Source of the DNA: an uncultured Algibacter sp.
GTDB lineage: Bacteria; Bacteroidota; Bacteroidia; Flavobacteriales; Flavobacteriaceae
Direction of reading: 5' to 3'
DNA length: 64,000 nt
Assembly: GCF_947495925.1 (NCBI RefSeq)
Contig: NZ_CANMAU010000002.1
Coordinates: forward strand, 248,001-312,000
In this document: piece by piece, positions 7,657-9,523 of the stretch
Layout of the letters: each line of letters starts with the position of its first letter
Numbering within the stretch: position 1 is the stretch's first letter
Made by a program: the position numbers and the translations under genes
Notes under the pieces: generated by a model
Seen by the model: the letters and a program-made list of their open reading frames with translations, nothing else
Databases searched by the model: none
What the model was told of the DNA's origin: nothing

Positions 7657-8373
7657 CTACTGAAAAGTTTTCTCTAACTGAATAGCTTTCGGGTGTAAGA
7701 TGTTATTTTCTAAATGTATATGTTGATGTAAATCTTGCTCAAATTCATCAAGTTTGGCGTACAAGGCTTTAAAGGTGTTACAAGCACCTTCTGGTGGTGT
7801 GTAATTGTTGGTAAGTTGAGCTATAATTTTAAAAGTATCGCCTGCAGATTCGTGTTCCGTTTCCATCATTTGAATAGGATTGTTAACCGTACCAAAGGAT
7901 GGTGTTGATGGTCTTGTTTTTTCCTTTTGTAGTTGAAGTAGTTTTTTAATATATGGGAACAGAATAAGTTCTTCCTTTTTTAAGTGCGCCGATAATTCAT
8001 TTGCAACTTCTATAAAGAGTTTGTTGATTTGTACAACTTCAGAATAATGGTGACCATGCACATGTGCAACTCTGTTAGAATATTGAAGAATTAATGGGAT
8101 GGATTCTTCCACATAGGTGTGATGAATATTGATTATATGATCAATTAAGAAATCAAGATTCCATGAATTATAATCATACGCTTTTGGAGCACTATCAACT
8201 TGTACTAATTCAGATTTTATTTTTTGGTAATCAAGCTGTTTTTTTTCACAGGCTTTTTCAATGGTAACACCGCCCCCACAGCAAAAGTCTATGCCGTGTT
8301 TTTTAAAAACATGAGCCGTTTTAATATTTTCGGCTACAACTTCGGCAACTGTTTTATTTTCTATAGTATTCAT
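7657..8373 (-). CDS. ric: Iron-sulfur cluster repair di-iron protein (Ric/ScdA/YtfE family)
   Basis: ScdA N-terminal motif HGIDFCCGGG; hemerythrin-like HxxE motifs in the C-terminal domain (HIHLENNILHPK). Confidence 0.95.
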   Translation of the reverse strand: MNTIENKTVAEVVAENIKTAHVFKKHGIDFCCGGGVTIEKACEKKQLDYQKIKSELVQVDSAPKAYDYNSWNLDFLIDHIINIHHTYVEESIPLILQYSNRVAHVHGHHYSEVVQINKLFIEVANELSAHLKKEELILFPYIKKLLQLQKEKTRPSTPSFGTVNNPIQMMETEHESAGDTFKIIAQLTNNYTPPEGACNTFKALYAKLDEFEQDLHQHIHLENNILHPKAIQLEKTFQ

Positions 8374-8390: not shown

Positions 8391-8412
8391 AAAAAGATGT
8401 TTTTATCTTTTT
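8391..8412. promoter_or_regulatory. Inverted repeat AAAAAGAT-N6-ATCTTTTT, candidate operator of ric
   Basis: 8-bp perfect arms immediately downstream of a TATTTTTG -7 box on the minus strand (8420-8427). Confidence 0.5.
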
Positions 8413-8419
8413 TATATGT

Positions 8420-8427
8420 CAAAAATA
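8420..8427 (-). promoter_or_regulatory. Predicted -7 box (TATTTTTG) of ric
   Basis: TAnnTTTG on the minus strand (CAAAAATA on plus). Confidence 0.5.
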
Positions 8428-8470
8428 TGTATTGCACTGAATACAAAACATGATAATTGTTAGGGACAGG

Positions 8471-8974
8471 TTATTTAAGAGTTCTAAAGTATTCTAAAAT
8501 AGCTCTTGCATCTTCTTCAGATAGGTTTTGATTGGCCATAGGTGAACCGTTAAATTCTGTTAATAATGCTTTTGCAAGAGGGTCTTTTTGTACCATTTCT
8601 TCAGGCTTTAAAATCATATTCATTACCCATTCAGGAGACCTGCGTTCCAATATTCCAGTTGTTGACGGGCCAATAAATTTCTTATTAGGTCTATGGCAAG
8701 CGGTGCACATTTTTTTAAATACATCTGCCCCGTGTGCAGCCATGGTCTGGTCTATAGCAGTATCTAGTGAAATGAAAGTAATGGGACCAACGCCCTTATT
8801 GCTAAGGTCGACTATTTTTGATGCAGGTAACCTCGCTTCTGTAGTGGATGCTTTATTCTTAGTAGTTGTTTTCTTGTTGTACGAGAAACTTTCTTTCTTA
8901 TTAGTTCCTTTACCTCCACAGCTAACAATTAGAGCAAATACTGTTATAAATAAAAATTTCAGTAACGTTTTCAC
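8471..8974 (-). CDS. Mono-heme cytochrome c lipoprotein; likely GTG start (MKTLLKFLFITVFALIVSCGG)
   Basis: Heme motif CTACH, lipobox LIVSCGG; GTG at 8974 gives a clean lipoprotein signal peptide (ORF track uses TTG at 8992). Confidence 0.85.
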   Translation of the reverse strand: MKTLLKFLFITVFALIVSCGGKGTNKKESFSYNKKTTTKNKASTTEARLPASKIVDLSNKGVGPITFISLDTAIDQTMAAHGADVFKKMCTACHRPNKKFIGPSTTGILERRSPEWVMNMILKPEEMVQKDPLAKALLTEFNGSPMANQNLSEEDARAILEYFRTLK

Positions 8975-9023
8975 AAGAGTGTGTTTAATCAAACAAAACT
9001 AATGTCTTAGTAGTCAAAATAAT

Positions 9024-9037
9024 ATGATAAAAATCAT
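9024..9037. promoter_or_regulatory. CRP/FNR-type site ATGAT-AAAA-ATCAT between divergent cytochrome c and rrf2 genes
   Basis: TGAT-N4-ATCA core; centre 36.5 bp from the nearest edge of each divergent -7 box (8994-9001 minus, 9060-9067 plus). Confidence 0.55.
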
Positions 9038-9059
9038 TTTGGGCTATAAACATCTTTTT

Positions 9060-9067
9060 TAGATTTG
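9060..9067 (+). promoter_or_regulatory. Predicted promoter of rrf2 gene: TTTG (9038-9041) N18 TAGATTTG
   Basis: Matches Bacteroidetes -33 TTTG / -7 TAnnTTTG. Confidence 0.6.
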
Positions 9068-9091: not shown

Positions 9092-9523
9092 ATGTTCTCA
9101 AACTCTTCCAAATATGCTATAAAGGCAGTTTTATATTTGTCTTTGCACTCTAGTGAATCTCGAAAAGTAATGGTTAAGGATATATCAAATCCAATTAATG
9201 TTCCACAGGCTTATATTGCCAAATTATTGCAAGAATTGGTAAAGGAGGGCGTTGTTTCTTCCACAAGAGGTCCAAAAGGAGGTTTTTTTATGAATGAACA
9301 TAACAATAATGAGAAAGTTATTAGGATTTTGGATATTATTGATGGTGAAAAAAAACTAACAAATTGTATGTTAAGCTTAGAAAGTTGTAATGAAGACAAG
9401 CCTTGTCCATTACATGCTATCCTAGGGCCTTCAAGACAAAATATTTTAAAAGTCTTAAACGAAAACAGTATAGTAGATTTAGCGCTTTCTGTTAGAAAAG
9501 GAACAGCCTTTTTACCGCTATAA
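9092..9523 (+). CDS. Rrf2 family transcriptional regulator; start revised to ATG 9092 (MFSNSSKYAIKAVLYL)
   Basis: Rrf2 HTH plus conserved cysteines CxxxxxCxxxxxC (CMLSLESCNEDKPCPLH); ORF-track TTG start lies in the -7 box. Confidence 0.93.
   Translation: MFSNSSKYAIKAVLYLSLHSSESRKVMVKDISNPINVPQAYIAKLLQELVKEGVVSSTRGPKGGFFMNEHNNNEKVIRILDIIDGEKKLTNCMLSLESCNEDKPCPLHAILGPSRQNILKVLNENSIVDLALSVRKGTAFLPL

Follow-up and report, generated by a model that had tools for sequence, protein, structure and literature searches.

The intergenic region between the divergently oriented cytochrome c and rrf2 genes carries a single palindrome of the CRP/FNR type that is common to both promoters. This shared site is conserved in the orthologous regions of other Flavobacteriaceae, and its exact symmetry with respect to the two promoters is not. 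The best explanation overall, which we consider probable, is that an FNR-like class II activator acts from the shared site and that the Rrf2 protein adds a feedback on top of it. The broader proposal, namely that there would be a Flavobacteriaceae-wide anaerobic regulon with a fixed N22 class II geometry, and that one dimer would drive both the nos operon and the divergent rrf2 gene, has in our opinion about even chances of being right. The parts of this account that were read or counted directly are the site, the spacings, their conservation, the content of the regulon and the palindromes. The features found in the window (the whole stretch of DNA analysed, 64,000 nucleotides) are collected in Table 1.

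In class II activation, as established for CRP and FNR, a dimer located at -41.5 touches the polymerase at the adjoining promoter, and the class II sites of E. coli FNR are centred at this position. In the mechanism that we propose, an activator of the CRP/FNR family would bind the site as a dimer, the most likely one being the FNR-like product of the gene next to ccoN and fixI. From -41.5 this dimer would aid the polymerase, carrying the primary sigma factor, to start at the TAnnTTTG box on either side. Under low oxygen the cytochrome c gene (in relatives, the whole nos operon) would be turned on, and so would the divergent rrf2, more loosely. Rrf2, probably sensing NO or the Fe-S status, would then restrain the rrf2 and ric promoters by way of a palindrome similar to AAGAYA-N4-YRTCTT. 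It should be noted that the two predicted starts are 83 bp apart, so that two polymerases may compete and the activation of both promoters could be alternating instead of simultaneous.

Table 1. Features of the cytochrome c/rrf2 region and of the ric promoter (positions in the window)
Feature	Position	Strand	Basis or remarks
FNR-type palindrome ATGAT-AAAA-ATCAT, ATGATAAAAATCAT	9024-9037 (centre 9030.5)		Common to both promoters; read directly
-7 box of the cytochrome c promoter, TAGTTTTG (on the plus strand CAAAACTA)	8994-9001	minus	N22 from site; predicted start ~8989
-7 box of the rrf2 promoter, TAGATTTG	9060-9067	plus	N22 from site; predicted start ~9072
Proposed Rrf2 operator: degenerate copy of the palindrome within the rrf2 spacer, GGGCTATAAACATCTT	9041-9056	plus	2/6 arm pairs
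Lipoprotein cytochrome c, GTG start; heads the nos operon in relatives, here without nosZ	8471-8974	minus	Pfam PF00034, synteny, start alignment and constraint
Rrf2-family regulator, Cys92-X6-Cys99-X5-Cys105	9092-9523	plus	Profile matches; cysteines invariant in ten orthologues
ric/scdA/ytfE iron-sulfur cluster repair di-iron protein	7657-8373	minus	TIGR03652 above cut-off
Second FNR-like site, imperfect left half, upstream of ric, CTAACAATTATCAT	8450-8463	minus	N22 from -7 box
-7 box of the ric promoter, TATTTTTG	8420-8427	minus	Predicted start ~8415
Clean operator-like palindrome within the predicted ric 5' UTR, AAGATAAAAACATCTT	8394-8409	minus	

The shared site and its two promoters

An initial annotation of this DNA had placed a CRP/FNR-type palindrome and its centre, together with the two -7 boxes, at the positions given in Table 1, and on direct reading all of them are exactly there. 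The spacers between site and boxes, 9002-9023 and 9038-9059, are both 22 bp long, and both boxes fit TAnnTTTG. The half-sites are palindromic and of the CRP/FNR-family type, with ATGAT-N4-ATCAT present in the window and also in the consensus over 79 regions. In the transcription start map of Flavobacterium psychrophilum (PMC9723704), the sigma-A -7 box TAnnTTTG occupies -12 to -5; with a spacer of N22, the site would be centred at -41.5 with respect to either predicted start, in agreement with the annotation.

For the cytochrome c gene, GTG 8974, a codon that aligns with the ATG start of the relatives, is a more likely start than TTG 8992. The next gene on the minus strand is ric/scdA. By its Rrf2 protein, the nearest named organism is Algibacter mikhailovii (78% identical).

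One scan provided 80 rrf2 loci, which, after adding the window and removing one locus short of upstream DNA, gave a set of 80 regions. The annotation had made its reading depend on the conservation of the site upstream of orthologous rrf2 and cytochrome genes; the FNR-type site, taken as the best-scoring one per region, is kept in 79 of the 80, window included. On the cytochrome side, a perfect TAnnTTTG was found at exactly N22 in 72 of these 79 regions and at N23 in one, with no best-of search for boxes. The rrf2 side is looser in spacing: counted in the same manner, the perfect box stands at N22 in 4/79, at N23 in 18/79 and at N28 in 12/79. Only the window, L164 and L166 (3/79) have a perfect N22 box to either side of the site, and therefore the exact equidistance claimed by the annotation holds in the window as a local detail, not as a conserved feature.

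The variable spacing on the rrf2 side counts against the proposed mechanism. The spacing is near-invariant on the nos side and varied on the rrf2 side, a TTG (9039-9041, direct read) stands 18 bp ahead of the rrf2 -7 box, and the rrf2 spacer holds a conserved operator-like palindrome. All this would suit a class II site that serves the cytochrome/nos promoter alone, with rrf2 transcribed from a TTG-N18-TAGATTTG promoter under the control mainly of Rrf2, in which case the symmetry of the palindrome would give the rrf2 side a false look of activation. However, when one mismatch is allowed (at least 5/6), the rrf2-side box appears at N22 or N23 in 49 of the 79 regions, and in most regions the rrf2 start codon lies 56-64 bp from the centre of the site. 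We regard activation of the nos side only as possible, on the unlikely side, and retain the site as probably shared by both promoters.

With respect to the genes controlled, the cytochrome gene of the relatives heads a clade II nos operon (stretches L123-L132). Of nine orthologous relatives viewed in larger stretches, eight have downstream of it a gene that looks fasciclin-like by eye, nosZ (identified by TIGR04246) and other nos-like genes. When ten genomes were searched, NosZ was found in the same eight relatives and not in the genome of the window (G000) or in A. mikhailovii, both of which keep the FNR-type site. Since NosZ is absent here and the nos operon is present in eight relatives, the cytochrome of the window would most simply be what is left of a lost operon, namely its first gene. 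A raised divergence of this orphan cytochrome was not clearly seen (dN 0.20 to L143; two relatives that bear nos gave 0.19 and 0.16); that of the A. mikhailovii cytochrome is clearly raised.

The motif in the genome and the family, and its candidate activator

In this genome, ATGAT-N4-ATCAT occurs 29 times, versus 10 for the reversed pattern. A motif scan of the kind suggested by the annotation, run over the whole genome with TGAY-N4-RTCA-N{22,24}-TAnnTTTR, gave 26 matches versus 1 reversed, so the pattern exceeds chance; a few of these matches fall within long reading frames and are not promoter-like. The same layout is found upstream of ccoNO, hemN, pfl (pyruvate formate-lyase), nrfH, moeA and pta (phosphate acetyltransferase), a set of anaerobic genes that we take to be typical of FNR/ANR regulons. 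Two secreted proteins with repeated 'VKAI' stretches were also observed behind N22 sites (G000:C5:69248, L255, and C5:96480, L256).

Over 151 Flavobacteriaceae genomes, the search for ATGAT-N4-ATCAT-N{12,32}-TAnnTTTG returned 290 matches versus 37 reversed. The spacing presents a sharp peak, with N22 in 97 and N23 in 19 of the 150 matches listed, which are a subset of all matches and not a random sample. This family-wide peak and the 79 orthologous regions lend strong support to the class II reading of the sequence, and so to the activator position that the annotation had assigned. An AT-rich intergenic sequence and a free search for patterns, such as that of the annotation, could produce a palindrome and a spacing by coincidence; given the N22 peak and the conservation in 79/80 regions, this was rejected and we consider it extremely improbable.

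Regarding the protein that would bind the site, 18 matches to the cNMP-binding domain were found in this genome, 17 of them over the family cut-off; the CRP/FNR-type genes number 16-18. One FNR-like gene (C4:246888-247562, L222) lies beside fixI/ccoN, approximately 2.5 kb from the ccoN site. Its product belongs to the CRP/FNR family and is closest to FNR: among NCBIfam models it scores best with Fnr NF008365 (E 3e-28, 98.8 bits versus a curated cut-off of 228), and against the PDB it matches FNR chains at E ~1e-21. In 20 orthologues, Cys4, Cys7, Cys29 and Cys106, and also Cys53 and Cys59, are invariant; Cys4, Cys7 and Cys106 align with the cluster ligands of E. coli FNR, and the third ligand is displaced, with Cys29 invariant instead. 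The half-sites, the content of the regulon and this gene beside ccoN, with its conserved cysteines, fit a CRP/FNR-family activator, the type named by the annotation. The recognition helix reads E-S-A-I-R in 20/20 orthologues, whereas E. coli FNR has E-T-I-S-R, and the E--SR form was not found in the protein or these orthologues; because of this unlike helix, the ccoN-linked protein is the best candidate only. In F. psychrophilum, the cbb3 oxidase rises when oxygen is limited (PMC9723704).

The candidate gene itself bears a similar site: in 14 of 20 orthologous fnr-like genes a TGAY-N4-RTCA site lies 48-51 bp before the start codon, and in L237 and L241 the distance is greater (-86 and -63). 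As a point against the proposed mechanism, most of these own sites have no clear -7 box (TAnnTTTG) at N22. As raw means, uncorrected for genome size or relatedness, there are 2.42 motif copies per genome where the ccoN-linked FNR type is present, 1.65 in the 34 genomes whose CRP/FNR hits are all weaker, and 0.44 where no hit falls below 1e-20 (reversed pattern: 0.26, 0.12 and 0.36, respectively).

That 34 genomes carry the motif without the ccoN-linked type indicates that another CRP/FNR protein may bind it. With the same class II geometry, this could be the second FNR-like protein with cysteines, encoded at C3:419163-419795, or a DNR-type regulator that responds to NO; the number of cNMP-binding-domain matches leaves room for it, and DNR of Pseudomonas, a regulator of nir, nor and nos, recognizes a motif like this one (PMC1274295). 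Nevertheless, the ccoN-linked protein adjoins a target site, its own gene bears a similar site and the genomes that have it contain the most motif copies, for which we find a different binder improbable and keep the ccoN-linked protein as the candidate.

The Rrf2 protein, its proposed operator and the ric promoter

The three conserved cysteines of Rrf2 could hold a cluster, and the protein did not reach the NsrR family cut-off (NF008240, 37.6 bits versus 182). A conserved palindrome near RRGAYR-N4-YRTCYY, absent from the initial annotation, was found in the rrf2 spacer of the orthologous regions, with all 12 scored positions in 44 of the 79, 11 in 26 and 8-10 in the rest. It is likely to be the Rrf2 operator. 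Covariation between its two arms was not found (Fisher p 0.20) and neither was genome-wide enrichment (12 matches versus 27 reversed; in a second search, 3 versus 13). Therefore, the palindrome alone cannot define a regulon, and we infer the binding of Rrf2 from its position and conservation. Low scores correspond to L142 and L158, with no nosZ seen nearby, but also to the nos-bearing L159, L185, L187 and L194, so no conclusion tying the decay of the palindrome to the loss of nosZ can be drawn.

The FNR-like site and the clean operator copy on the ric side (8394-8463) were not in the annotation either. This layout, consisting of an imperfect FNR-like site, N22, TATTTTTG and a clean palindrome downstream, is also present in A. 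mikhailovii, and similar palindromes were seen by eye just upstream of the ric genes in L050, L051 and L054. In L134 and L133, Rrf2 paralogues adjoin genes whose translations resemble, by eye, copper nitrite reductase and nitric oxide reductase.

Comparison with known systems

The elements described here are of known kinds, and gene activation of this sort is already known from other bacteria. In the open-licence literature, judged mainly by titles and the beginnings of abstracts, we recognized no description of the Flavobacteriaceae layout or of its rule. The rule, ATGAT-N4-ATCAT, N22 and TAnnTTTG, would predict low-oxygen genes throughout the family, including clade II nitrous-oxide reductase operons.

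The palindromic TGAT-N4-ATCA core, the predicted centre at -41.5 and the anaerobic gene set are shared with class II CRP/FNR activation. The differences from the class II sites of E. coli FNR are the Bacteroidota -7 box TAnnTTTG in place of -10/-35 and the half-site ATGAT instead of TTGAT. Activation of divergent promoters by one CRP dimer has a precedent (El-Robh and Busby 2002, cited in PMC5499769). As with the single CRP or Cmr dimer of that source, one CRP-family site stands here between two divergent transcripts; different here are the predicted class II distance on both sides and the conservation at the nos/rrf2 junction.

In Flavobacteriia, rrf2 genes occur near clade II nosZ (PMC6264515). 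The region studied resembles those clusters in having rrf2 near nos genes and differs in that this genome is without nosZ; in the passages of that account that were consulted, neither the promoter layout nor the FNR-type site was present. Finally, as in the control of denitrification and ric by DNR and NsrR (PMC1274295), an FNR-like activator and an Rrf2-family regulator would act around nos and ric, here in a Flavobacteriaceae host, with another operator and with the Rrf2 cysteines arranged as C-X6-C-X5-C.
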